A program made the translations under genes and the position numbers. A DNA stretch of 64,000 nt from Acidobacteria bacterium SCN 69-37 (lineage in GTDB: Bacteria > Acidobacteriota > Vicinamibacteria > Vicinamibacterales > SCN-69-37), in contig MEDJ01000009.1 in NCBI GenBank assembly GCA_001724025.1, forward strand, positions 489,302-553,301, read 5' to 3'. Of this stretch, positions 50,532-63,843 are shown one piece after another. The notes beneath the pieces were generated by a model. That model worked only from the letters and a program-made list of their open reading frames with translations. It made no database searches and was not told the origin of the DNA. Each line of letters starts with the position of its first letter. Position 1 is the first letter of the stretch.

Positions 50532-51711
50532 GGATCAGCGAAGCCTTACCCGGATCGTAGACATACCTGGTGATCGAGCCGTCCTTGATACGTTGCACCA
50601 CCTCGTCGATGACGAAGAGCGGCACGAGGAACCACTCGCGCGGTCGGACGGGATTGCCGAAGCGGTCCTTGATCTCGATATCCAGCTGCGCATTGTCGAA
50701 GACACGATGAAGCAGGTTCTCCAGCTTCACGCGGTTGACGTTGTAGAGGGTGTAGGTCGCGACGACATCGACGTCGGCGAGCAGGAACGTCGCGTCGAGA
50801 CTGGCATTGGCGATACGGGCTTCGACCTTCCCGCCGGTGACGCCGATCTTGTGGAGCACGTCGCGGTGTGCCGCGACCGCCGGGTTGTCGGACTTGCTGC
50901 GCAGCACGTAGATCGTGCCGGCGGCCAGGTCGTCGGCGGCCGGTTCATCGCCGAACAACGGACCGATTTCGAGGCTGGTGATGAAGCGCGCGGTCGCGTC
51001 GCGGTGCAGCGCACGCTGAAGCGAGCGCTGCAAGACGTCGTTCTCCGTGCCGTTGTCGTAGATGACCCGCAGGCGCCTGTCCTTGCGGTCGTACTTCGTC
51101 GTGAATTCCTCGCCCATGTCGGCAACGTAAGCGAGCTGGCCTTCGACGATGAAGAAGTCGCCCTTCTGAATGGCAGAGGCCTTGACGGCATCCACGTCCC
51201 CGACCGGAACGACGATGCGTTCACCTGCGTCGAGCTCCGCCCGGACTCGCTCGAAGATCGGCTTGAACGTGTCGAAGTCTTCGCACTTCGTGCGGTGCGC
51301 GATTTCTTCCGCAGCGCGCTTGTCGGCACTGGTGCGGACATGGTGCAGCGCCGTGATGTCTTCTGCACCACTGTCGCCGGAGAGTTCGGCCAGCAGTTCG
51401 TCGTCGCTGATCTCGGTCGCCGCCGCCGGAGCTGGCGCGTCCCCGAGAAGCCCCTGATGGTCGAGGGGCGCGAGAATCACCCGGCAGTCCTCTAGAGCGC
51501 GCAGCCGGTCGAGCCGGACGGCATAGAGCCGCTCGAAGATGTCGCGGTCTTCCCCGTGCATCGGGGCGCGGCCATGTTTCTCGACGAAGCGCTGGATATC
51601 CTCGAAGCCGGCGATGACGCGCTCCTCTCGGGGCGAGCGCCCGCCCTTCTTCTCGACGACGTCGAATTCCGCAAGCTCGTCCGCGAGTTCGTCGAGGTCG
51701 GGGTCACTCAT
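50524..51711 (-). CDS. GIY-YIG nuclease
   Basis: 395 residues from ATG 51711. The C-terminal GIY-YIG domain begins GTIYVLRS (265 to 272), continues with HKIGVTGGKVEARI (Arg299) and VNRVKLENLLHRVF (Glu331, the metal ligand), close to the T5orf172 type. The first 250 residues are an uncharacterised region that begins with an acidic helix and likely binds partner proteins or DNA. It overlaps the helicase by 8 bases upstream and the zinc-ribbon gene by 8 downstream. It would cut DNA in a restriction complex with the helicase and methyltransferase. Confidence 0.88.
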   Translation of the reverse strand: MSDPDLDELADELAEFDVVEKKGGRSPREERVIAGFEDIQRFVEKHGRAPMHGEDRDIFERLYAVRLDRLRALEDCRVILAPLDHQGLLGDAPAPAAATEISDDELLAELSGDSGAEDITALHHVRTSADKRAAEEIAHRTKCEDFDTFKPIFERVRAELDAGERIVVPVGDVDAVKASAIQKGDFFIVEGQLAYVADMGEEFTTKYDRKDRRLRVIYDNGTENDVLQRSLQRALHRDATARFITSLEIGPLFGDEPAADDLAAGTIYVLRSKSDNPAVAAHRDVLHKIGVTGGKVEARIANASLDATFLLADVDVVATYTLYNVNRVKLENLLHRVFDNAQLDIEIKDRFGNPVRPREWFLVPLFVIDEVVQRIKDGSITRYVYDPGKASLIHV

Positions 51712-53761
51712 AGCGCCCCTCCTTCTTGAACCGCATGAACGCGGCGGCGCCCTCGGCCATGCGCTTCTCCCACGCATCCGCGGCGGTGAGCGACGGCGTG
51801 CGTCCGCGCTCCTTCTTGAACTTCACGGCGCGGACGGCCAGCTCTTTTGCTTCTTCCGGCGTCAGGGCCGTGCGCTTGGCCGAGATGGCGGCCTGGACCT
51901 GCTTCAGGCTGTCCTCGCTCATGGTCTTGGCGAGAATGGCGTATGCCTCCCCGAAGGGATTGATGCGGTCGATCAAGTCGATGTCGAGTTCGCGCACGTC
52001 CATCGCGAAGCGGCGGACGCCGTCAATCAGGGCGGTGTTGGCGACCTCGGTGGGTGTGCCGGTCCCCAGGCCCTGCTGCTTGGCCTGCTGCGTGATGTTC
52101 AGCGCCGCGATGGCGTGCTGGCGCACGGCCTCCTGGTCTTCCTCGTCAAGCTCGGGATACCGGGTCTTGACGATCGTGGCCATGCGCACCTGCGTGAGTT
52201 CCTCAGGAACAAGCTCCTGGTCGAACAGGCCGCGCTCGAGGGCCGTCTTGTCCTGGACGAACGCGGCGATGACCTCGGTCAGGTCCTCGCGGCAAATGCG
52301 CGTGGCCTCCTCGGATTTCGGTTCGGCAAGACCCTTGATCTCGATCTGGATCTGGCCGGTCTCATGGTTGACGCCGACATTGGTTCCACCCGGCACGTAG
52401 CCGCCGGGACCGTAGTCGAAGCCGTTGGTGGGGCCGTTGCCGGCGTTCTTCGGCCTGAACTCGAACCGCGGCGCCAGCACCTGTTCCATGAGCAGGCTGG
52501 CCGCAATGGCCTTGAGCGTGTCGTTGACGGCTTCGGTCACGGCCTCCTCGGCCGCGTCCGGCTCCGCGATCAGATTCGTGAACCGCGCGCGGCTCTTGCC
52601 GGGTGCGTCGCGGGTGGCGCGGCCGATGATCTGGACGACTTCGGTGAGGCTCGCCCGATAGCCGATGGTCAGCGCGTGCTCGCACCAGATCCAGTCGAAG
52701 CCTTCCTTGGCCATGCCCAGCGCGATGATGATGTCGACCCAGTCGCGGTTGTTCTTCTGGGCCGGGTCCTTCAGCGCCGCCGAGACACGGTCCCGCTTTG
52801 CCGGGTCGTCGTCGACGAGATCGGCAATCCTCAGGATGCGGCCGTCATCCAGCTTCACGAGCTGAAAGCCGGTGGCGCCGTCGATCCCCTGCCATTCGCC
52901 GAGCGCACCGATGATGTGCTCGACCTCCTTCATCTTGTCCTTGGTGCTCTCGCGCGCGTTCACATTCGGGATGTGGACGATGGTCTTCTCGGCGGGCCTC
53001 AAGACCTTCAGGATGTCGTCGACGTACGAGCCGCTGTAGAAAAAGTAGCCGATGTCGAGATGCTTGAGGTGCTCGTAGCCGTTGAGCTGCTCGTAGTAGG
53101 TGTAGGTGACGGTGTCGAACTTGGCCTCATCCTGCGGCGCAAGGACGGCCTCAGCATCGCCACGGAAGTACGAACCGGTCATGGCCACGATGTGCGCTTT
53201 GTCGCGCGCCATGAACTGGCCGAGATGCGTGCCCAGGCGGTTATCGGGATTGGCGGAGACGTGGTGGAACTCGTCGACGGCGATCAGCCTGCCATCGAAC
53301 GCCTCGACGCCGTACTCGTCGACCGCGAACCGGAACGTAGCGTGCGTGCAGACGAGAACCTTGTCGTCGCCCGCCAGGAACGTGCCGACGGCCTTCACCT
53401 TGCCGCCGTTGTCCCCGCCCGGCGCGTTGCAGAGATTCCATCTGGACTCGACGTGCCAGTCGGCCCAGAACCCGAACTGCGAGAGCGGCTCGTCGTTGAA
53501 GCTCGCGCCAATCGACTTCTCGGGCACCACGATGATCGCCTGCATGAGCCCCTGGTTCTGCAGCTTGTCGAGCGCGATGAACATCAGCGCCCGGCTCTTG
53601 CCGGAGGCCGGCGGCGACTTGATCAGGAGGTACTGCTCGCCGCGTTTCTCGTAGGCCCGCTCCTGCATGGGCCGCATGCCGAAGGCGTTCGATTTCGTGG
53701 ACGCGCCCGTCCGCGCGTAGGACACCGAGATGGAGGGAACAGTCTTGGATTCGTCGGTCAT
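51704..53761 (-). CDS. DEAD/DEAH-box helicase of a restriction-like system
   Basis: 685 residues. Walker A SPPASGKSR (about 49 to 57), box II AVDEFHHVS (163 to 166 as DEFH), VAMTGSYFRGD (motif III-like), and a late IIGRATRDAPGKSRARF (motif VI). It follows the SF2 architecture of restriction-type translocases. ATGA overlap with the methyltransferase and 8-base overlap with the GIY-YIG gene show coupled expression. It probably moves along DNA to reach or expose the cleavage site. Confidence 0.92.
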   Translation of the reverse strand: MTDESKTVPSISVSYARTGASTKSNAFGMRPMQERAYEKRGEQYLLIKSPPASGKSRALMFIALDKLQNQGLMQAIIVVPEKSIGASFNDEPLSQFGFWADWHVESRWNLCNAPGGDNGGKVKAVGTFLAGDDKVLVCTHATFRFAVDEYGVEAFDGRLIAVDEFHHVSANPDNRLGTHLGQFMARDKAHIVAMTGSYFRGDAEAVLAPQDEAKFDTVTYTYYEQLNGYEHLKHLDIGYFFYSGSYVDDILKVLRPAEKTIVHIPNVNARESTKDKMKEVEHIIGALGEWQGIDGATGFQLVKLDDGRILRIADLVDDDPAKRDRVSAALKDPAQKNNRDWVDIIIALGMAKEGFDWIWCEHALTIGYRASLTEVVQIIGRATRDAPGKSRARFTNLIAEPDAAEEAVTEAVNDTLKAIAASLLMEQVLAPRFEFRPKNAGNGPTNGFDYGPGGYVPGGTNVGVNHETGQIQIEIKGLAEPKSEEATRICREDLTEVIAAFVQDKTALERGLFDQELVPEELTQVRMATIVKTRYPELDEEDQEAVRQHAIAALNITQQAKQQGLGTGTPTEVANTALIDGVRRFAMDVRELDIDLIDRINPFGEAYAILAKTMSEDSLKQVQAAISAKRTALTPEEAKELAVRAVKFKKERGRTPSLTAADAWEKRMAEGAAAFMRFKKEGRYE

Positions 53762-56538
53762 GCGCGCGCTCCCGCCTTCGTCTTGGCCTTTGCCGGTCCC
53801 GCTGCTGCGGCCATCTTCGTGTACAGATCGAACAGCTTCTCAAGCCGCTCGGTGTCGTTCTTGAAGCGACGCCCGATGTAGATCCGCTCCAGCACCTCAT
53901 CGTTGCGCTCGTGCGCCTGCCGGAGGTCCTCCGGCATCGTCTCGGGATCGTACAGGTCGGCAATCGTCGCCGGGAAGTGATGCTCGCGCGCCAGCAGGAT
54001 GTCCTCGGCGCAGCGCGTGAGGTCCGCCTTATTCTTGTCAGTGAGCGCTGGAACCGGGAACGTGTTCCACCCGAGGGTGTTCGAGTAGGAATAGTCGGTC
54101 CGCAGTCGGACGCACACGGTCGCGATCCACACGAGATGAAGGCGCGAGCCGAGCAACGCGACATTCCAGAGCGGAGCGTCATAAATGGCATAGGTCTTAT
54201 TGCTGACTATGGCGCCCTCCGGCAAGAGACCGCACGGCAAGTAGGGTCGGCCTTCCGAACTTATCGCCGCTACCGCGACGACTCGCTCGTTACCGAGCTG
54301 CCTTACTTCACCGAAGCGGTATGGATACGCGGCAAGTTCTTGGGTTGTCTGTCGGTTTGACGCCAGTCGCTGGCGCCGCACGGCCTCGACACGATCACTT
54401 AACCACGCATTCTGTTTGAGACGCTCATACTGCTCCAGAGACAGCCAGAGGCAACGTCGTTCGATGCCCCGTATGAATTCCTGCGACCCGAAGAATGGTC
54501 GAACAAAATCCTTTGGAACACCGGATTGCAGCGCCGCACGTGCGTCTTCTGCATCCAACAGCAGAAATCCTCCATCATTGGGCATGTTTCCGAAGTTCAT
54601 TTCGGCGAGACCGTTCAGCGGACGCGAGGACGGCGCGACTGTCACGTCCCGACCGGGCACCAGATAGGCGTTGATGTTGTCGACCACCTTGACGGTTGTA
54701 CCGCCGTCGTCGGAGTCCGAGGCGAGAAGCCGAACTCCGCTAGCTTGGTTCGTAATGCCGACAACTACTACGGTCACGCCAGCGTTGTGACTGGCGAGAT
54801 TCGCCCATGTGAATGACGTGTGGGCAAACGAGATGTGCTGTCCCGCAGCCGCGATGAGTGACCACAAAATTTCGACCTGCCGTCCCTGACAGATCGAGTT
54901 TGTCGCAACAAAGGCAGCGACCGTCTTCGTGCTTCGTCCGTAGTCAGCGGCTTTCATGAACCAGCCAGACACGTAGTCGAGCGATTTCCAGTTTCTGGTC
55001 CTCTGTTCGAAAATGGCTCGCAGGTCGGCTTTCTGTTCATCGGTTTGCCATTGGCTTCCCTTGTATGGCGGATTGCCGCAGATGTACGTCTCGCCCCCCT
55101 CGTTCTCGAAATCGATCGTCGCCTGGTCGAGCGGCGTGGCGAACAGGTCATCCCCGTGAAGCCTCACTCCGATACCAGTCGGTGGGCAGACGCTCAACCA
55201 ATCGAGCCGCAGGGCATTACCGCAGGTAATCCAATTCTCGGCCCTGAGCGGTAGAAATTCGACCAAGGCGAGCTTCTGCCCGCGATAGAGCACGTCGCAC
55301 TGGTACTCGGCTATGACGAGGGCCAATCGCGCAATCTCCGCCGGAAAATCACGAATCTCGATGCCGCGGAAGTTCGTGAGAGGGATTTCACTGCGCAGGT
55401 CAGGCTCGCCACGGCGACGGTTGATCTCCGCCTCGATGGCACGCATTTCCTTGTAGGCAATGACGAGGAAGTTGCCGGACCCACAGGCCGGATCGAAGAC
55501 CCGGATCTTCGCCATGCGCTTGCGAAGATTCAGCAGCGTGCGGGGATTATCGCCGGCTTCGGCGAGCTTCGCGCGCAGGTCGTCGAGGAATAGCGGATTG
55601 AGCACTTTGAGGATGTTCGGGACGCTGGTGTAGTGCATGCCCAGCGCGCCCCGCTCGTCATCGTCGGTGACGGCCTGGATCATCGAGCCGAAGATGTCCG
55701 GGTTGATCCGGGTCCAGTCGAGATTGCCGATATGAAGCAGGTACGAGCGCGCGATCCTCGAGAAGCGCGGCACGTCCATGTTGCCGGAGAACAGGCCGCC
55801 ATTGACGTACGGGAAGTCCCGGCACCAGCGCGGCAGCCCGGCGGCGTCGCGTTCCTCATTCGTCGCGCTCATGGCGCGGAACAGGGTGCTGACGACCTCG
55901 TGCGTGTTTGAGGAGTCCGGCGCGCTCATCGTGGCAACGGTGTCGGTGAAGAGCCGCTTGCCGGTGAAGATGGCGGTGTCTTCCGCGAAGAAGCAGAAGA
56001 TCAGCCGCGCCATGAAGTGATTCATGTCATGGCGGCGGGCGTCTGTGCCCCATTCGGGGTTGTCCTTCAGCAGCTCCACATAAAGCCGGTTGAGCCGGCT
56101 GGTCGCGCGGATGTCGAATGAGTTCTCGGCGATCTGCCGGACCGTGCTGATGCCCGCCAGCGGCAGGAAGAAGCCGAAATGGTCCGGGAAGTCCCTGTAG
56201 GCGCAGGCAACGGTCTCGCCGCCGGCAAGATCTTCGGCCTCGAAGTCCGCGCCGTCGGTGGCAAGAATGAACTTCGCCTTGGCCCTGGCGGTCGCCGGGC
56301 TCTCCCTCAGGGCCTTGAGGCCTGCCCCAACCTGGCCGGTGTCGCAGGTGAGAATGTGGATGTTGCTGGTCTGGAGCACGCCGCCCAGATCCGACTTGTT
56401 CGAGGCGCCCGCGCGCAGGCGCTTGATCGTGGTTTCCTTGTTGCCGAACGCCTCAAGGAAGGCATACGGGAAGTTGGCGCGGTCGAACGGCTGTTCCGCG
56501 AGGTCGGTGATGGCCTGTTCGATTTCAACGGCGTTCAA
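53758..56538 (-). CDS. MmeI-like class I DNA methyltransferase
   Basis: 926 residues from a TTG start at 56538 with a GAGG site 8 bases upstream; no in-frame ATG is better placed. Cofactor motif FDPACGSGNFLVIAYKEMR near residue 343 and catalytic NPPY (ICGNPPYKGSQWQ) near residue 488 mark an N6-adenine methylase of the MmeI/YeeA family. The N-terminal third (FAFLEAFGNKET-like, then FPDHFGFFLPLAGIS) and a C-terminal target-recognition part complete it, but no nuclease domain is seen. Cutting is probably done by the GIY-YIG gene of this operon. First gene of four. Confidence 0.92.
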   Translation of the reverse strand: MNAVEIEQAITDLAEQPFDRANFPYAFLEAFGNKETTIKRLRAGASNKSDLGGVLQTSNIHILTCDTGQVGAGLKALRESPATARAKAKFILATDGADFEAEDLAGGETVACAYRDFPDHFGFFLPLAGISTVRQIAENSFDIRATSRLNRLYVELLKDNPEWGTDARRHDMNHFMARLIFCFFAEDTAIFTGKRLFTDTVATMSAPDSSNTHEVVSTLFRAMSATNEERDAAGLPRWCRDFPYVNGGLFSGNMDVPRFSRIARSYLLHIGNLDWTRINPDIFGSMIQAVTDDDERGALGMHYTSVPNILKVLNPLFLDDLRAKLAEAGDNPRTLLNLRKRMAKIRVFDPACGSGNFLVIAYKEMRAIEAEINRRRGEPDLRSEIPLTNFRGIEIRDFPAEIARLALVIAEYQCDVLYRGQKLALVEFLPLRAENWITCGNALRLDWLSVCPPTGIGVRLHGDDLFATPLDQATIDFENEGGETYICGNPPYKGSQWQTDEQKADLRAIFEQRTRNWKSLDYVSGWFMKAADYGRSTKTVAAFVATNSICQGRQVEILWSLIAAAGQHISFAHTSFTWANLASHNAGVTVVVVGITNQASGVRLLASDSDDGGTTVKVVDNINAYLVPGRDVTVAPSSRPLNGLAEMNFGNMPNDGGFLLLDAEDARAALQSGVPKDFVRPFFGSQEFIRGIERRCLWLSLEQYERLKQNAWLSDRVEAVRRQRLASNRQTTQELAAYPYRFGEVRQLGNERVVAVAAISSEGRPYLPCGLLPEGAIVSNKTYAIYDAPLWNVALLGSRLHLVWIATVCVRLRTDYSYSNTLGWNTFPVPALTDKNKADLTRCAEDILLAREHHFPATIADLYDPETMPEDLRQAHERNDEVLERIYIGRRFKNDTERLEKLFDLYTKMAAAAGPAKAKTKAGARA

Positions 56539-56677
56539 CGCTGCATCCTCGTCTCAAGTGAGCGGCTGACCAGTGTGGCTTCCCGGCGCACTATGCCACG
56601 GCCGTGAGCGCCCTGCCAGAATCGGAATCCTGTGACAGACGTTACGGAAATCGGCCGCCGTCCGCGTGATTCGGCAA

Positions 56678-58252
56678 TCATTGTGCCCCTGCTGACGGCG
56701 ATTGCCCCGGCATCTCAACGAAGCCGTCGAAGGCGTCGGCGACGATCTGTTCGATGCGCTGTACTTCGTCGTCGGTGAGCTGCTTGAACTCGCCGTCCCG
56801 GCGGTTCTTCGAGAGTGTGCCGTTGTTCTGGCGGATGAACATCAGGAGGTTCTCGGCGAGGCGATCAGGCATCTCGACGGCCTCCATCGTGCGCTGCAGT
56901 GCCAGGTCGTGGCGGCGCAGATAGTCGATCTCGCGCGGCAGATCCTCGTCGACGGTGCGCTGGACGCAGGCGAAGAGGAACTCGGCCGCCTGCGTGCAAT
57001 CGAAGTAGCGGTAGAGGTCCGCGGTGTCGTTGAGCACCTCAACGTTGCGATCGGGTGTCGGGCGCCATTCGATAAACGGCATCAATGCGCCGGAGTGCCC
57101 CTGGAGCGTGGTGCGGTAGTCGTCGATGCGGTCGAGCATGACGGATGACACCGGGAACACCATGCCGGTCGGCGTGAAGCGGCGCTCGGCCAGGACGTGG
57201 TGAATGAGGCAGCGATGCAGGCGGCCGTTGCCGTCGCCGAAGGGATGCACATAGACAAATCCAAAGGCGGTCGCGGCGGCCTGCAGCACGGGGTCGAGGC
57301 CATCGTCGCGCATGCGGTCGTTGGCGTCGAGCATGCCGGCCATCAGGTCCGGGAGGTCCTGCGCGCGCGCCCCAATGAACTCCGGCAGCGGATCGCCGAC
57401 ATGGTCGCGTTCGCCAAGGAAGACGCCGTCGGGACGAAGGCCGGGAGATACGAAGCGCGTGTCTTCGATGAGGACGTTGTGCAGCCGGATGATCTCGTCC
57501 ACGGTGAGCTTGTTCTTGCCGGCCTGCAGCACGGCCCGCCCCCAGCGTTCGAGGCGGTTGCGGGGTGGACGCTCGCCTTCGATCTGGAAGCTCGCGCGGC
57601 TGTCGGCGAGCAGCAGGAAGCTGGCGGCGCGGGCCACGAGATGGCCGCCGGTGCGGCCCACCGTTTCGCGCGCGCGCGCCGCGAGGTCGAGCGCAAGGGC
57701 CTTTTCAAGCGCGGCGGTCCGCCGGATGACGGGAGAGTAGCGACTGCTGCCGAGGAGATTGTCCCGGACGCGGTGGCGCTTTGAGAGGCGTGGCTTGCCC
57801 GTGAAGTAGAGCTTCGGGTCGAGCAGGTCGATGGCCGGCACGCGCGGCGCGTCGTCCACATTGAGGGTGCGGCCGGTCAGCGCTTCGTAGAAGAACCAGG
57901 CTCGGCGCACGTGGCTCGCCTTGGGCGCGGCGCGCACGATCGCTTCGAGCGCCGCGGGAGGAAGCGCGTCGAAGATGCGCTTGAGGACCAACAAATCGGC
58001 GGTCTCGTGCTTGAGGAAGAACTCGATGTGACTGCCGAGGTCGTCGCCGGGCCAGTAGCGCTTGTCGAAGACGGTCCAGGCGCCATCCGTGCGGCGGCTG
58101 TCGCGGACGTGCAATTCCGCCACACAGCTCGGTCGCCGCACGGGCGCGGCGACGCCCAGCTCGTGCACCAGGGCTGCGGCGCCCGCGAGGCGCGTGCCCT
58201 GCGGAACGGTCTGCTCCTGGAATGTTGCCGGTTGGGCCTTCTGCATGTTCAT
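56678..58252 (-). CDS. Fic-domain protein with inhibitory motif
   Basis: 524 residues if started at ATG 58252 (ATG 58246 also fits); the longer frame to 58330 runs through the GTCGAAA array and is not preferred. The Fic motif HPFGDGNGRLHR (about residue 340) is intact. SFQIEGE near residue 230 matches the (S/T)xxxE(G/N) inhibitory helix, so activity should be self-limited. It would transfer AMP or another group to a protein. It diverges from the QueC-like operon with which it shares a promoter region. Confidence 0.85.
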   Translation of the reverse strand: MNMQKAQPATFQEQTVPQGTRLAGAAALVHELGVAAPVRRPSCVAELHVRDSRRTDGAWTVFDKRYWPGDDLGSHIEFFLKHETADLLVLKRIFDALPPAALEAIVRAAPKASHVRRAWFFYEALTGRTLNVDDAPRVPAIDLLDPKLYFTGKPRLSKRHRVRDNLLGSSRYSPVIRRTAALEKALALDLAARARETVGRTGGHLVARAASFLLLADSRASFQIEGERPPRNRLERWGRAVLQAGKNKLTVDEIIRLHNVLIEDTRFVSPGLRPDGVFLGERDHVGDPLPEFIGARAQDLPDLMAGMLDANDRMRDDGLDPVLQAAATAFGFVYVHPFGDGNGRLHRCLIHHVLAERRFTPTGMVFPVSSVMLDRIDDYRTTLQGHSGALMPFIEWRPTPDRNVEVLNDTADLYRYFDCTQAAEFLFACVQRTVDEDLPREIDYLRRHDLALQRTMEAVEMPDRLAENLLMFIRQNNGTLSKNRRDGEFKQLTDDEVQRIEQIVADAFDGFVEMPGQSPSAGAQ

Positions 58253-58387
58253 GTCGAAAAGTCTCTCAAGATGGTCGAAATGAGACCATAAATGGGCTTT
58301 AAGGTCGAAACAACCATACAGCCTCGACATGTCGAAATCAAGCGAATCACGTCGAACGAAGCCTCATGTGGTCCAGTTGCGTCGAAA
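58253..58387. promoter_or_regulatory. GTCGAAA direct-repeat array
   Basis: GTCGAAA occurs at 58,253, 58,274, 58,304, 58,331 and 58,381, with a variant GTCGAAC at 58,351. Spacings of 21, 30, 27, 20 and 30 bases are near whole turns of the helix. It lies between the divergent fic gene and the QueC-like operon, which encodes an XRE repressor. It is a good candidate operator array. Confidence 0.6.
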
Positions 58388-58398
58388 ACATCGAGTAT

Positions 58399-58427
58399 TT
58401 GACATTGTCAGATATTCTTACTAGTAT
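58399..58427 (+). promoter_or_regulatory. Promoter for the QueC-like operon
   Basis: TTGACA (58,399-58,404) and TAGTAT (58,422-58,427) are separated by 17 bases. The surrounding 40 bases are far more AT-rich than the rest. The start codon of the first gene is at 58,447, leaving a leader of about 12 bases. Confidence 0.6.
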
Positions 58428-58446
58428 TTCTGACACCGAGGTTCCC

Positions 58447-59010
58447 ATGAGCGACGGCCCACATCGAAGCCTGCCGATGCGACCTGCCTGGCGCCGCGTG
58501 GCGCACTGGGCGGACCGGCAGGCGTTTGCGCCGGACGAGGTCGGCGAGGCATTGGCCGTCGCGGTCGAACAGGACTGCCGTCAGGAGCTCCGGCCTCAGT
58601 TCCTGGCCGAGCTTCGACGGGTTGTTGAAGAGCCATCCCTCTTTCGCGAAGACACCAGCGCGCGGCTTGCTGCGCTCAATCCGACGGCCGGAGCGGGCAT
58701 CGAGCGCTCGGTCATGGACCGCTTGTGTTTTCTCACTGAAACGGAAGCGCCTGGCTTCGCCACGCTCCAGGCGGCCGTCGCCATGGCGGCCCAGGATTGC
58801 GCCAATCGCCGCGCGCGGCAGATCGAGGAGCACTTCCTGCGGCGCACCTCTTCCTCCCGCGCGCGCGATATGCGCGGCCGGCTTCACGCTGCTGCGGACG
58901 TCACCAGTTTCGCGTCGGTCGCCGCTCGCGTGCTCGGCGTCGATCCGCATCACCGCCCGGCGGCGCCCGCCAAACATACCGGTCTCGACGACGGGGTGAA
59001 ACTGCCATGA
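58447..59010 (+). CDS. Helical protein of unknown function, partner of the QueC-like protein
   Basis: 187 residues from ATG 58447, a few bases after the likely transcription start. It is mostly helical (FAPDEVGEALAVAVEQDCRQEL, GFATLQAAVAMAAQDCANRRARQIEEHFLRR) with no catalytic motif I recognise. It overlaps the QueC-like gene by an ATGA, so the two are translated together. Qat systems also have a small partner gene (QatB) before QatC, but I cannot confirm homology. Function unknown. Confidence 0.7.
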   Translation: MSDGPHRSLPMRPAWRRVAHWADRQAFAPDEVGEALAVAVEQDCRQELRPQFLAELRRVVEEPSLFREDTSARLAALNPTAGAGIERSVMDRLCFLTETEAPGFATLQAAVAMAAQDCANRRARQIEEHFLRRTSSSRARDMRGRLHAAADVTSFASVAARVLGVDPHHRPAAPAKHTGLDDGVKLP

Positions 59011-60386
59011 CCGCCAAGACCTCCCGCTCCGCCGCCATTCACGTCACTGAGCCGGGCGTTCGCGCGCCGCGCGGCGTCCGGCGGTGCGAGATCGGATCGC
59101 ACGTGGCGTTTGAGACCGAGAGTCTCGAGTCGTATTTCTTCTCAACCTGGGAGCCCGTCGCCTATGACGCGCTGCTGGCCGCCGCGGCGGTCGAGTATGC
59201 GGATCGCACGGTGCGGCGCGGCGCACACTTCTGGGAGCGGCAGATCGAGCTGCGGGTGCCCGTTCACGACGTCGGCCGGTGGAACGCGGGCAATGTCGTG
59301 GCGACGCTTCACGATGCCCTCGGCTTCCTGACGGGCGACCGCTGGCACATCACGTTCTACGCGCGACGGCATGCGGCGGACAGGCCGCAGCAGGTGACGC
59401 TCAACCTGCCGAGCGGCGTGGCCGCGGTCATCCCGTACAGCAATGGCCTCGATTCCTGTGCGGTCGCGGGCCTCTCGGCCCGGGAGCTGGGCAGCAGTCT
59501 CGTGCGCATTCGACTCGGGTCGGTGTCGCCGGACGCCGAGGACCACGACCAGGAGCGCCAGCCCTTTACGGCCGTGCCCTACAAGGTGCGCGCCGATGGC
59601 ACGCCCTTCGTCGAATCGAGCGCCCGATCCCGCGGGTTCAAGTTCGCGCTGATCAGCGGCCTGGCTGCCTATGTCGCCAACGCCAGCCGGATCATCGTGC
59701 CGGAGAGCGGTCAGGGCGCACTGGGGCCGTCGCTGGTGCCGGTGGGTCAGGCCTACGAGGACTATCGCAGCCACCCGCTGTTCACGGCCCGGATGGAAGC
59801 GTTCCTGGCCGCGCTGCTTGGCTCCAAGGCTCGTTTCGAGTTCCCGCGGCTGTGGCAGACGAAAGGCGAGACGCTCCGGCAGTTCGTGAACGAAGGTGGC
59901 AATGGCAAGTGGAGCGCGACGTGGTCCTGCTGGCGGCAGAACCGCCATGTCAGCGTCGATGGCCGAAGGCGCCAGTGCGGCGTGTGTGCCGCGTGCATGT
60001 TGCGCCGCATGAGTGTTCATGGCGCCGGCCTTTCGGAGCCGGCGGAGCGCTACGTCTGGACGGACCTGTCGGCGACGACCTTCGAGTCGGGCGCGGCGCC
60101 GTCGTATCGCGACAAGAACAAGATCACCCGCGCGTCGCGCGAGTACGCCATCGCGGGCGCGCTGCATCTTGACCATATGGCCAGCCTGTCGGACGCCGCC
60201 GCCGAGAGCGGCGCGCTCGACCTGGCGGCATCTCAGCTCGCGCTGGCGCTTGGCCTGACAAGAGACACGGCCCGCCAGCAGCTTGGACGACTACTGCAGC
60301 AACACCGTACGGAGTGGGAGGGTTTCATGGGGTCCCTTGGACCGAATTCATTTGTGGCCGACTGGGCGATGCGGGGGCGGTCATGA
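59007..60386 (+). CDS. QueC/QatC-like deazaguanine synthase homologue
   Basis: 459 residues from ATG 59007; the longer frame upstream overlaps the previous gene and is not used. The PP-loop reads YSNGLDSCA (residues 144 to 152), close to SGGxDS of QueC with Asn for the first Gly. Four cysteines, Cys308 and Cys324/327/330 (TWSCW ... CGVCAACMLRR), match the QueC zinc site. The N-terminal 135 residues (LLAAAAVEYADRTVRR, WERQIELRVPVHD, LGFLTGDRWHITF) resemble QatC rather than housekeeping QueC. It could form a 7-cyano-7-deazaguanine-type group on a nucleotide or protein. It is not near other queuosine genes, so a defence role is likely. Confidence 0.82.
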   Translation: MTAKTSRSAAIHVTEPGVRAPRGVRRCEIGSHVAFETESLESYFFSTWEPVAYDALLAAAAVEYADRTVRRGAHFWERQIELRVPVHDVGRWNAGNVVATLHDALGFLTGDRWHITFYARRHAADRPQQVTLNLPSGVAAVIPYSNGLDSCAVAGLSARELGSSLVRIRLGSVSPDAEDHDQERQPFTAVPYKVRADGTPFVESSARSRGFKFALISGLAAYVANASRIIVPESGQGALGPSLVPVGQAYEDYRSHPLFTARMEAFLAALLGSKARFEFPRLWQTKGETLRQFVNEGGNGKWSATWSCWRQNRHVSVDGRRRQCGVCAACMLRRMSVHGAGLSEPAERYVWTDLSATTFESGAAPSYRDKNKITRASREYAIAGALHLDHMASLSDAAAESGALDLAASQLALALGLTRDTARQQLGRLLQQHRTEWEGFMGSLGPNSFVADWAMRGRS

Positions 60387-61564
60387 CCGCGCTCGAACAG
60401 GTCCCGTCGAAAGAAGTGGGAGAACGCCTGCGCGTGGCGCGCGAGTCCGCCAACCTGAAGCAGGCGGACGCGGCGTCGACGATCGGCGTGGCACGGACCA
60501 CTCTGGTGGCGATCGAGCAGGGAGAGCGGCGCGTCCGGATGGGCGAGCTGCAGAAGCTCGCGCAGTTGTACGGCACGTCGGTCAATGCCCTGTTGCGGCG
60601 GGAGGCCGTCCACGTGGACCTCGTGCCGCGCTTTCGCAAGCTGGACGGCGCGCACGAGAGCGCTGTCGATGAGGCCGTTGACCTGTTGGCCAGCCTCGTC
60701 AAGGCGGAGGTCGAGCTGGAGAACCTGCTCGGAATTCAGCGGGTGCGCAGCTATCCGCCAGAAAGGCCCCTGCTTCCCGGCGATGTCCGCGCGCAGGCGG
60801 AACAGGATGCCGCCGAGCTGCGGCAGCGGCTGGGCCTGGGGAGTGCGCCGCTGACCGACATTGTCACGCTGCTGGAGCTCGAGCTGGGCGTGCGGATCTA
60901 CGTGAGGCGCTTTGACGGCCGGATCTCGGGCCTGTTCGCGTATGACGATGCCCTGGGGGCCTGCATGCTCCTCAACGCGAACCATCCGCGCGAGCGCCGC
61001 ACGCAGAGCGCGGCGCATGAGACGGGGCATTTCGTGTCGACCCGGAACCGGCCGGAAGTGCTGCACATCGGCGAAGCCGAGAATTCGCGGGAGGAGCGCT
61101 ACGCGAACGCCTTCGCCCGCGCCTTGCTCACGCCCGCGCGTGCAGTAATGCAGAAGTTTCAGGAAGTGACGGCGGGATCGGACCGCGTCACCCGGCGCCA
61201 CATCATCGTGCTCGCGCACTTCTTCGGAGTCTCGCGCGAGGCCATCGTGCGCCGGCTCGAAGAGCTTGACCTGGTGAAGGCGGGCACTTGGGACTGGTTC
61301 GAGGCCAACGGCAGCATCTCGGACGACCAGGCGCGTCAGGTTCTGGGTGATGTGCCGGGCGCGGATAGTCAGAAGGCTGAAGCCGACCGGCCGACCACGC
61401 TCCGGCTCAACATGCTGGCCGGAGAGGCCGCGCGCCGCGGCCTGCTGAGCGAGGGGCAGCTTGCCCGCCTGTTGAGGCTGGACCGCGTGGAAGTGCGCGA
61501 GCTGCTGATGGGGCAGGAACTCGAAGGGAACGAGGGCGATGGCGTTATCAAGCGCACTAACTGA
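60383..61564 (+). CDS. XRE-family regulator with ImmA/IrrE metallopeptidase domain
   Basis: 393 residues from ATG 60383 (ATGA overlap with the QueC-like gene). The XRE domain spans about 11 to 72 (RLRVARESANLKQADAAS, GVARTTLVAIEQGERR). The ImmA/IrrE domain has HETGH (212 to 216) and a following Glu near 237 (SREERYANAFARALL), the zinc ligands. Such proteins cleave a repressor or relieve repression by their own protease activity. It probably binds the GTCGAAA array and responds to a signal, then frees the operon. Adjacent PIN-like gene overlaps its end by 26 bases. Confidence 0.87.
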   Translation: MTALEQVPSKEVGERLRVARESANLKQADAASTIGVARTTLVAIEQGERRVRMGELQKLAQLYGTSVNALLRREAVHVDLVPRFRKLDGAHESAVDEAVDLLASLVKAEVELENLLGIQRVRSYPPERPLLPGDVRAQAEQDAAELRQRLGLGSAPLTDIVTLLELELGVRIYVRRFDGRISGLFAYDDALGACMLLNANHPRERRTQSAAHETGHFVSTRNRPEVLHIGEAENSREERYANAFARALLTPARAVMQKFQEVTAGSDRVTRRHIIVLAHFFGVSREAIVRRLEELDLVKAGTWDWFEANGSISDDQARQVLGDVPGADSQKAEADRPTTLRLNMLAGEAARRGLLSEGQLARLLRLDRVEVRELLMGQELEGNEGDGVIKRTN

Positions 61565-62183
61565 TGCGGCGTCCTCGCTCGTCGCCGATGCCAGCACGGT
61601 CATCAACCTCGTGGCGACCGGCAACGCGGCGGCGATCCTGAGAGCCCTTCCCCAGCGCGTCCTGGTCGTTGACGTTGTTCAGGCCGAGCTTGAAACGGCC
61701 GGCGCTCGCGGCCGAACGTCGCTGGAGGGATTCAGGGGATTGGTCGCGACGGGATTGATCGATGTGGTTCCATTGCCGGAGGAGGCCGACTCGCTGTTTG
61801 AGGGTCTCGTTGTCGGCTCGGCGGCGGAGACGCTCGACGACGGCGAAGCGGCAACGATTGCCTGCGCCCTGGCGCGGCCGGCTGCCGCGTTGATCGACGA
61901 GCGCAAGGCCACGCGCCTGTGCTGCGAACGCTTCCCTCTTCTGCGGCTGGCCTCGACAGTCGATGTCCTCTGCCACGCCGAGGTGCAGCGGCAGCTCGGG
62001 CCAGGACCGCTCGAAACGGCCGTCTACAACGCCTTGCGGGACGGGCGCATGAGCGTTCTGCCCCATCAGGTCGACTGGATCGTCGGCGTGATTGGATCGG
62101 AGCGCGCGGCGACGTGCGACAGCTTGCCCCGGCGGGTGCGCGACGCTGCGGTCGATCCCGGCGGTGGCCGCGCGACGCTATAA
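61539..62183 (+). CDS. PIN-like protein (DUF3368-type)
   Basis: 214 residues from ATG 61539. Acidic residues of the PIN fold are in place: Asp17 (LVADASTVINL), Glu50 (DVVQAELET), Asp101/Glu103 (LDDGEAATIACA) and Asp120 (LIDERKATRL). The first half is thus a magnesium-dependent RNase-like fold. A C-terminal extension of about 80 residues is less conserved. PIN proteins beside ImmA/IrrE proteins form known toxin-antitoxin-like pairs; here it is part of a larger operon. Whether it cuts RNA must be tested. Confidence 0.78.
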   Translation: MALSSALTDAASSLVADASTVINLVATGNAAAILRALPQRVLVVDVVQAELETAGARGRTSLEGFRGLVATGLIDVVPLPEEADSLFEGLVVGSAAETLDDGEAATIACALARPAAALIDERKATRLCCERFPLLRLASTVDVLCHAEVQRQLGPGPLETAVYNALRDGRMSVLPHQVDWIVGVIGSERAATCDSLPRRVRDAAVDPGGGRATL

Positions 62184-62277: not shown

Positions 62278-62517
62278 GTGGACCAGCCCCGCTACATTGG
62301 CCTCGATGAGGCCCGCCAGGTGCTGGCGGAAATGGGTGTGATGTTGACGCCGCGGCAGATGAAGCGCGCGGCGGACAAGGATGCTGACGGCCGGCGCAAG
62401 CTGCCCTTCTTCATCGATCCCATCGAGGGCACGCTCAAGATCGATCGACAGGACCTCATCAACGCATACGTCAAACAGCAACGGGACGCACAGCGCCAAT
62501 GCCGGCCTCAGCCCTGA
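62278..62517 (+). CDS. Excisionase-like small protein
   Basis: 79 residues from GTG 62278. It reads RYIGLDEARQVLAEMGVMLTPRQMKRAADKDADGRRKLPFFIDPIEGTLKIDRQDLINAY, a small winged-helix-like DNA-binding fold of the MerR/excisionase kind. It sits just before the integrase gene, the usual place for an excisionase. A CATAAT box at about 62,253 could be its -10. It may bend DNA at the attachment site during excision. Confidence 0.65.
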   Translation: MDQPRYIGLDEARQVLAEMGVMLTPRQMKRAADKDADGRRKLPFFIDPIEGTLKIDRQDLINAYVKQQRDAQRQCRPQP

Positions 62518-62563
62518 CAAAACGACTTGCCTGTGGCGAATCGGTCGTGCAGGATGCCGACCG

Positions 62564-63769
62564 ATGACGGACATTCGCAAGAGAGTTGGGCGTGACGGCC
62601 GGGCGACCTACCAGGTGCGCTTCCGCGGCCCGCGCGGGTACGAGTACCGCACGTTCGACTCCGCGAAAGAGGCGCGCGCCTTCCGCGAGGACGCAACGGC
62701 CCAGAAACGCGCCAGCCGTCGCGGCGCCACGACCGTAACAGTCGAACAAGGCGTCCAGAAGTGGCTGGATATCTGTGAGAAGGAAGGCCGGGACGGACGC
62801 GAACCGGTCACGCGCTACACGCTGGACAACTACGAGTACCGTGCGGAGATCATCAAGAGCTACGACTGGGACAAGGACCTCCAGGAGCTGAGCAAGCCGG
62901 ACATCGTTCAGTTTCGTTCCTGGCTGCTGCAGAACCACAGCCGCGATGTGTCCAGCAAGGTGCTGACGTCCTTCCACTCGATGATCAAGGAGCTGGTAGG
63001 TCGCGGCGAGCTCTCGCAGGACATTGCGGCCGGTGTCCACGTCACGGCCTCGTCGCGCTACGACGAACCGGTGGTGATTCCGAGCGAGCGCGACATCCAG
63101 CAGCTCCTGGCGACCGCCGATCGGCTGGCGAACTCCAAGAATCTGCAGACGCAGCGGACGTGGCTGCGCTACCGGCCGATGCTCTATCTCGCCGTGGACT
63201 CCGGGATGCGCCCGCAGGAGTACCTCGCGCTGGCGCGCGCGAGCATCAGGGACAAGGGCGTCGAGGTGGACCGCGCGCTCGACGGCGGCGGCACCGAGAT
63301 CAGCGTGACGAAGACCCGCGCCGGCCGGCGCTTCATCGATCTAAGCCCGGACACGCTCGATATGGTCCGGCACTACGCGCGGCATCACGCGATCGAGAAC
63401 GACTACGACCTTGTGTTTCCAACGCGGACGGGCAAGTGGCAGAGCGTCAGGAACTGGCGTAGCCGCGGCTTCGCGGCAGTCTGCGAGGAGGCCGGCCTCA
63501 TGGTCAAGGAGAAGATCGGGCGGCGGACAATCGAGCGACCGAAGTACAAGCCGTACGATTTGAGGCATTTCTACGCTTCGATGCTCATCGACCAGCGTGT
63601 GAATCTCAAGCGCATCCAGACGCTGATGGGCCACCGCAACATCCAGACGACTCTGAACGTCTACGGCCACCTGATTGAGCGCGTTGAGGCGCAGGAACAT
63701 GCGCGCGTCAGCGTACTTTCCTGCATGAATCGCGCAACTCGTGATGAACATGTGGCAACGGTGACGTAA
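62564..63769 (+). CDS. int: Tyrosine recombinase (integrase)
   Basis: 401 residues from ATG 62564; the frame upstream overlaps the excisionase-like gene and is unlikely. The N-terminus has an AP2-like/arm-binding part (GRDGRATYQVRFRGPRGYEY), then a core-binding SAM-like domain. Catalytic residues: Arg216 (GMRPQEY), Lys250 (VTKTRAG), Arg334 (YDLRHFYASM, where the first usual His is Tyr331), His357 (LMGHRNI) and Tyr367 (TLNVYGHL). It ends only about 25 bases before the tRNA fragment, its likely attachment site. Confidence 0.93.
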   Translation: MTDIRKRVGRDGRATYQVRFRGPRGYEYRTFDSAKEARAFREDATAQKRASRRGATTVTVEQGVQKWLDICEKEGRDGREPVTRYTLDNYEYRAEIIKSYDWDKDLQELSKPDIVQFRSWLLQNHSRDVSSKVLTSFHSMIKELVGRGELSQDIAAGVHVTASSRYDEPVVIPSERDIQQLLATADRLANSKNLQTQRTWLRYRPMLYLAVDSGMRPQEYLALARASIRDKGVEVDRALDGGGTEISVTKTRAGRRFIDLSPDTLDMVRHYARHHAIENDYDLVFPTRTGKWQSVRNWRSRGFAAVCEEAGLMVKEKIGRRTIERPKYKPYDLRHFYASMLIDQRVNLKRIQTLMGHRNIQTTLNVYGHLIERVEAQEHARVSVLSCMNRATRDEHVATVT

Positions 63770-63793
63770 GTGATTGATCCCATTGATGACAAA

Positions 63794-63843
63794 CTTGCTC
63801 GACACGCAAGGGGTCACAGGTTCAATCCCTGTACTGCCCACCA
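63794..63843 (+). pseudogene. 3' half of a tRNA resembling tRNA-Val(GAC), probable attachment site
   Basis: It has an anticodon-type arm CTTGC/GCAAG with loop TCGACAC (GAC), a good T-arm ACAGG TTCAATC CCTGT, ACTGCCC as the 3' acceptor strand, and ACCA at the end. No GGGCAGT 5' strand or D-arm is found upstream, so only the 3' half exists. Position 33 of the loop is C rather than U. It looks like the attR half left by tRNA-targeted integration, but the intact tRNA is not in this window. Confidence 0.8.

Follow-up and report, generated by a model that had tools for sequence, protein, structure and literature searches.

Does the QueC-family gene near the end of this stretch of DNA serve queuosine synthesis, or does it belong to an anti-phage system together with its neighbors? 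The stretch, referred to below as the window, comprises 64,000 nucleotides from Acidobacteria bacterium SCN 69-37 (contig MEDJ01000009.1), and the gene is the second in a cassette of four genes on one strand at window positions 58,447-62,183. The original prediction for this region had been a candidate defense system distinct from the standard Qat system, in which a QueC-like protein and a helical protein mark or sense infection and a protease frees a PIN RNase. Analysis of the genomic context of the cassette and of the kinship of its proteins indicates that it is probably a defense system, and its distinctness from standard Qat is borne out by strict gene linkage, the defense-island context, the lack of QatA and QatD, and a partner protein that is not QatB. 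No description of this four-gene combination was found in the open-access papers searched. A more specific reading, a mobile, self-regulated and probably abortive anti-phage system of two joined modules, is proposed with rather less than even confidence when taken as a full chain.

Conservation of the four-gene cassette

The cassette consists of gene 1 (58447..59010), encoding a 187-residue all-helical protein; gene 2 (59007..60386), encoding the QueC-family protein of 459 residues; gene 3 (60383..61564), encoding a 393-residue protein with an XRE repressor domain and an ImmA/IrrE protease domain; and gene 4 (61539..62183), encoding a 214-residue PIN-domain protein predicted to be an RNase effector, all on the plus strand. 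With 60,383 taken as the start of gene 3, the overlaps of 4, 4 and 26 bases reported earlier between successive genes hold. The cassette start had been placed at 58,253, but stops interrupt that frame and its first in-frame ATG is at 58,366; the conserved start of gene 1 is the ATG at 58,447 (MSDGPHRSL...), and the equivalent position is used in 85/85 relatives, as ATG in 80, GTG in four and TTG in one.

When 85,000 prokaryote species were scanned with a five-member gene 2 alignment, more than 130 relatives emerged. Linkage was examined by profile searches in 85 loci, comprising the 80 best gene 2 relatives and five from the same class. All 85 carried genes 1, 2 and 3, and 81 carried the PIN gene as well, with no change of order or strand in any of them. 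Three of the four loci without a PIN gene stop at contig ends, and in the fourth (L055) genes 1-3 are intact and the PIN frame is broken beyond roughly a dozen recognizable residues. These counts supply the co-occurrence check that had been suggested for the XRE-ImmA and PIN genes, and the situation that would have weakened the idea of a system, a QueC-like gene found mostly alone elsewhere, was not encountered, genes 1 and 2 never occurring without gene 3.

The 85 loci were chosen by gene 2 similarity (44-60% identity), with a possible bias toward close relatives. An independent tblastn search of plasmids recovered cassette members at 37-55% gene 2 identity, and the distant members that were opened (L100, L102, L103 and L104) had the same neighboring genes, in an order that persists on plasmids down to 38-42% identity. 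A gap follows below 37%, and the lower matches listed, at 33% or less, are mostly annotated as qatC or, where opened, lie inside qatABCD operons. Pairwise protein distances correlate for all six gene pairs (Mantel r 0.72-0.82). Because the order and strand linkage recurs in relatives and the distances correlate, the four-gene operon is more than a chance neighborhood.

The hosts include Acidobacteria, Proteobacteria, Chloroflexi, Planctomycetes and others, many of them soil and water bacteria. Several copies are plasmid-borne, and most plasmid gene 2 members are named '7-cyano-7-deazaguanine synthase' by NCBI. A viral origin of the cassette was rejected, as no relative was found in IMG/VR or phage records. 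One decayed cassette (L014:8669-10257) has a truncated gene 2, an internally deleted gene 3 and an intact PIN gene.

Relationship of gene 2 to QatC and QueC

The 459-residue protein was searched with profile hidden Markov models, as had been suggested earlier. It scored 25.7 bits against Pfam QueC, above the cut-off of 22, and 124.9 bits against the QatC equivalog NCBIfam NF041925, far below the cut-off of 280; the score against the QueC model TIGR00364 was 15.8 bits (cut-off 150). NF041925 scores were 113-121 bits in same-class relatives versus 346-528 for true QatC proteins. Among PDB sequences the QatC entries 9vlk and 9zee were matched (E about 1e-16), the QatC profile match reached 3e-31, and the structural model matched QatC structures 9y01_B and 9y02_B (E 1e-14, template modeling (TM) score 0.62-0.66), at an identity to QatC of 22-33%. 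The QatC fold with its N-terminal extension, PP-loop and zinc site was found in gene 2, and the predicted PP-loop (SxGxDS, here SNGLDS) and four zinc cysteines (C308, C324, C327 and C330) were confirmed. On its sequence and modeled fold, gene 2 is classed as a sister of QatC and not as QatC itself.

Gene 2 carries a Y250-x-D252-x-R254 motif, which across the family reads Y (77/83), E or P, D (83/83), Y and R (83/83). Because a profile alignment of modest strength (E 0.001) sets this Y-[EP]-D-Y-R loop on YPDCR of E. coli QueC, the gene 2 family seems to have retained a pocket motif of the QueC/Cap9 type, one that is lost in QatC, whose STRTT loop is essential and invariant (PMC13279940). An alignment of QatC T278/T280 with gene 2 D252/R254 was replaced by one in which R254 aligns with QatC R279.

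The motif had raised the idea that host-made 7-carboxy-7-deazaguanine (CDG) is the obligatory substrate of gene 2. Canonical full-length QueC was present in 31 of 41 cassette hosts. In the ten others, QueE gave 0 matches with one model and no more than about 22 bits with another, and a QueD-type protein was present in only two; these ten are mostly draft or metagenome-assembled genomes, but one (L039) is an isolate and another (L043) is assembled to chromosome level. In a further batch of hosts, a QueE match with one model was absent in 10/29, and the source genome of the window carries QueE- and QueD-like genes. Because about a quarter of hosts are without canonical QueC and without a convincing QueE match, host-made CDG is no general requirement, and the idea was rejected as a general rule.

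The helical partner and its N-terminus

Gene 1 had been described as helical, and its confident model (predicted local distance difference test, pLDDT, 91) consists of nine helices. The model matched none of the solved and viral structures searched, though QatB-QatC complexes are in the same library, and a profile comparison with seven QatB proteins (hhalign) gave a probability of 0.6%, so that an assignment of gene 1 as QatB was not supported by profile or fold.

The extreme N-terminus of gene 1, M-S-D-G-P-[HY]-[RK]-[ST]-L, is near-invariant, with D3-G4-P5 in 83/83 members and S2 in 81/83. Among distant members, two keep M-T-D-G-P and one (L102) has V-R-D-G, and D3-G4 is kept in all of those read. 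To serve as substrates for QueC-family ligases, QatB and CdnD require a conserved extreme N-terminus, and the N-terminus of QatB is essential (PMC13279940); that of CdnD is the acceptor of the ligase (PMC11996544). Because of these precedents, we infer that Ser2 may be the modification acceptor and gene 1 the substrate of the QueC-family enzyme. Whether gene 2 would modify the gene 1 N-terminus, as the analogy suggests, is judged to be evenly balanced. A conserved C-terminal DDGVxL of gene 1 was also considered as a functional tail; this was not concluded, because the likely ribosome-binding site for gene 2 lies in the same stretch.

The probable protease-antitoxin and the PIN protein

Clear Peptidase_M78 and HTH_3 matches and the HETGH sequence of gene 3 agree with the XRE-HExxH protein predicted earlier, and H-E-x-x-H was found in 81/83 members compared, the two exceptions being a fragment and a split gene. 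Gene 3 is of the RmrA kind of XRE-ImmA protein, matching PADLOC RmrA (PDLC03949) at E 3e-27 over residues 37-407 of a longer reading frame. XRE-ImmA proteins are antitoxins of the phage-defense system RosmerTA, and a network analysis had already pointed to ImmA/PIN-like pairs (PMC10440598). In 32 of 37 members the last 50 residues of gene 3 match UPF0175 (best 1.4e-5), a putative antitoxin family paired with PIN toxins (PMC6929052). These matches make it somewhat likely that gene 3 is the antitoxin of the PIN protein.

No PIN domain was detected by Pfam in window gene 4 alone. PF01850 (PIN) was matched by 14 of 59 family members (best 1.2e-4), and the PIN active-site acidic residues D17, E50, D101/E103 and D120 vary little or not at all, which supports the earlier description of gene 4 as PIN-like. 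Gene 4 matches PADLOC PDC-S70, not an RmrT model.

One XRE-ImmA/PIN pair stands alone without genes 1-2 (L159:7479-9333). Because this pair has lost HExxH (AQALGRLM instead), it hints, as one case, that the protease may be needed only where genes 1-2 are present. A decayed XRE-PIN remnant lies between apparent type I hsdM and hsdS genes (L158:5000-6795).

A conserved promoter-operator

A conserved promoter-operator, a feature absent from the original prediction, lies upstream of gene 1. In the window it consists of the palindromic operator TTGACATTGTCA (58399..58410, plus strand, 0 mismatches), whose first six bases are the -35 box; a -10 box TAGTAT (58422..58427, plus strand) 17 bp downstream of the -35 box, as seen in the sequence itself; and a second operator half-site TGACA (58431..58435, plus strand) 31 bp after the first. 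The general form is TTGACA-N-TGTCA with a TGACA half-site about 31 bp on, the -35 box lying within the palindrome. With no more than one mismatch, TTGACAnTGTCA was found upstream of gene 1 in 78/83 loci, spread across phyla, versus 5/1,500 random flank windows, and the second TGACA followed 30-31 bp on in 71/83 loci.

The operator was absent before all five true qat operons checked and was kept with one mismatch at the stand-alone XRE-PIN pair L159, which indicates that it belongs to gene 3. Gene 3 is very probably the autorepressor of the operon, with putative binding at this operator.

Genomic context

The context of 20 cassettes was examined in 142 flanking open reading frames (ORFs), for which 125 ORFs in 12-kb stretches at other places of these contigs served as controls. 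At a threshold of E<1e-20, 102 PADLOC families were matched among the flank ORFs versus 4 among the controls, counts which overstate gene numbers because several models match one gene. Flanking defense genes included Gabija, AbiE (three genes each of AbiEi and AbiEii), restriction systems of types I, II and IIG, DRT, PD-T7-1, PD-T7-3 and Fic. A Methylocystis plasmid cassette (L101:5396-9128), whose gene 2 is named '7-cyano-7-deazaguanine synthase' by NCBI, lies beside E2/ThiF, AbiEi/AbiEii and AbiJ genes, and Shedu lies near the L102 cassette.

In the window, the minus-strand region 51704-58330 adjoining the cassette encodes a Fic protein (PADLOC PDC-S24, E 4e-182), an MmeI-like type IIG enzyme and a DEAD/ResIII helicase. 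On the other side, region 62381-63843 contains a tyrosine recombinase gene followed directly by a tRNA 3'-end fragment (63812-63843), which together likely mark one end of a mobile island; no second end was found. Definition of the island boundary by a tRNA repeat was rejected, as the 3' fragment is present only once in the genome. Beyond the recombinase and outside the window, a minus-strand gene encodes a 2371-residue protein with RTX-like repeats (L019:10557-17672).

Proposed mechanism

The anatomy of the cassette is compatible with the mechanism suggested earlier, and the following version is proposed. Genes 1 and 2 would form a QatBC-like pair, the ATP-dependent QueC-family enzyme binding the helical product of gene 1 and linking a nucleobase-like carboxylate to the very N-terminal residue of that product, which is Ser2 once the methionine has been removed. 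Genes 3 and 4 would form a RosmerTA-like toxin-antitoxin pair, in which the XRE domain of gene 3 represses the operon at the TTGACAnTGTCA operator and its C-terminal UPF0175-like part keeps the PIN RNase inactive, the same protein also carrying the ImmA protease. The protease would be triggered upon infection, either by the condition of the gene 1-gene 2 pair or by a ligand, for example single-stranded DNA (ssDNA); the repressor-antitoxin would be cut, the operon derepressed, and growth stopped by the PIN RNase.

Several points weigh against this reading. No homology to QatB is detectable in gene 1, whose residue 2 is Ser where QatB and CdnD have Gly; in L102 it is Arg, so that the methionine would not be removed there. 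The modification step rests on analogy with a ligase chemistry that, for QatC too, is still to be proven (PMC13279940), and the quarter of hosts without canonical QueC or a convincing QueE match speaks against host-made CDG as a general substrate. The UPF0175 match of window gene 3 itself is weak (E 0.007), and retention of the PIN gene beside the gutted gene 3 of L014 is odd for a potent toxin. The sequence shows the four-gene unit, its domains, the conserved N-terminus and operator, and the defense-island surroundings; the modification and its chemistry, the trigger, the cutting of gene 3, the RNase activity and the defense against phages belong to the proposed part of the model.

Alternative explanations

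The alternative that survives best, which we nevertheless consider unlikely, is that the XRE-ImmA/PIN pair serves solely for addiction or regulation, stabilizing and controlling genes 1-2, which alone would defend, as QatBC does against some phages. QatBC alone protects against phage lambda (PMC13279940), the XRE-PIN pair can stand alone with its own operator (L159), and L055 combines a truncated PIN gene with intact genes 1-3. On the other side, the four genes move together, genes 1-2 are invariably accompanied by gene 3 in the 85 loci, and the RosmerTA relatives of gene 3 are themselves defense antitoxins (PMC10440598).

It is less probable still that the cassette is a toxin-antitoxin system responding to stress or DNA damage in general, with no specific anti-phage role, in which the ImmA domain of gene 3 senses ssDNA. 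Such sensing has precedents in PprI and CapP, ImmA/IrrE proteases that ssDNA activates and that cleave XRE repressors (PMC10904395), but the flanks of the cassette are enriched in defense genes, and the nearest QueC-family member to gene 2 is an anti-phage protein.

A divergent Qat system with QatA and QatD replaced is, by a little, the more improbable of these two. Gene 2 has the QatC fold, PP-loop and CGxCxxCxxRR zinc site, together with the N-terminal-extension motifs D(x)4R..WxR and DxWxxxF, and its partner gene lies immediately upstream with a 4-base overlap, like qatBC. However, the cassette is without a QatA (KAP) ATPase or a QatD TatD nuclease gene, its conserved neighbors being XRE-ImmA and PIN genes; gene 1 resembles QatB neither in profile nor in fold and begins with MSDGP where QatB has MGTS; the C-terminal extension of gene 2 is unlike that of QatC, which binds QatB; and the pocket loop is YEDYR-NHP versus STRTTHP in QatC.

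That gene 2 is an ordinary 7-cyano-7-deazaguanine synthase (QueC) in an incidental neighborhood is very improbable, since the Pfam QueC match, the likeness of its loop to the QueC YPDC motif and the annotation of plasmid relatives are opposed by the canonical QueC present in most hosts, the low TIGR00364 score, large N- and C-terminal extensions, the fixed four-gene linkage and the failure of QatC itself to complement queC (PMC13329287).

Relation to known systems and significance

Type IV cyclic-oligonucleotide-based anti-phage signaling systems (CBASS) resemble the cassette in pairing a QueC-family protein with a Y-x-D motif (Cap9) with a protein that has a strictly conserved extreme N-terminus (CdnD). 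They differ in that neither a CD-NTase nor Cap10 is found in the cassette operon or its conserved neighborhood, Cap9 is without extensions, and the N-terminal Gly of CdnD is Ser in gene 1. RosmerTA is resembled in the RmrA-like gene 3 with a predicted toxin gene adjacent, and ImmA proteins with PIN-like partners are known (PMC10440598), but in the cassette this module is coupled to a QueC-family pair, the C-terminus of gene 3 is UPF0175-like, and the PIN protein does not match RmrT. The COG2886 (UPF0175)-DUF3368 PIN pairs share the UPF0175-like segment beside a PIN gene; in gene 3 this segment, weakly matched in the window protein, is fused to XRE and ImmA. The parts are of known kinds, and the cassette is filed as a QueC-family immunity variant joined to a RosmerTA-like module.

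It is conceivable, though rather doubtful, that the cassette represents a third independent QueC-family protein-modification immune system, in which a sister of QatC would mark the MSDGP serine with a small molecule, not necessarily CDG made by the host, and the mark would control the protease freeing the PIN RNase. As speculation, the cue in QueE-less hosts may be a phage-made deazaguanine precursor.

Protein modification by QueC-family enzymes in immunity is a recent finding (type IV CBASS), and current tools miss the cassette or label gene 2 as queuosine synthesis. In the cassette, a QueC-family enzyme is permanently wired to a recognizable output, a predicted protease-antitoxin and PIN RNase under a single conserved operator, and the question of what a QueC-family modification may signal to is thereby directly testable in one small operon.

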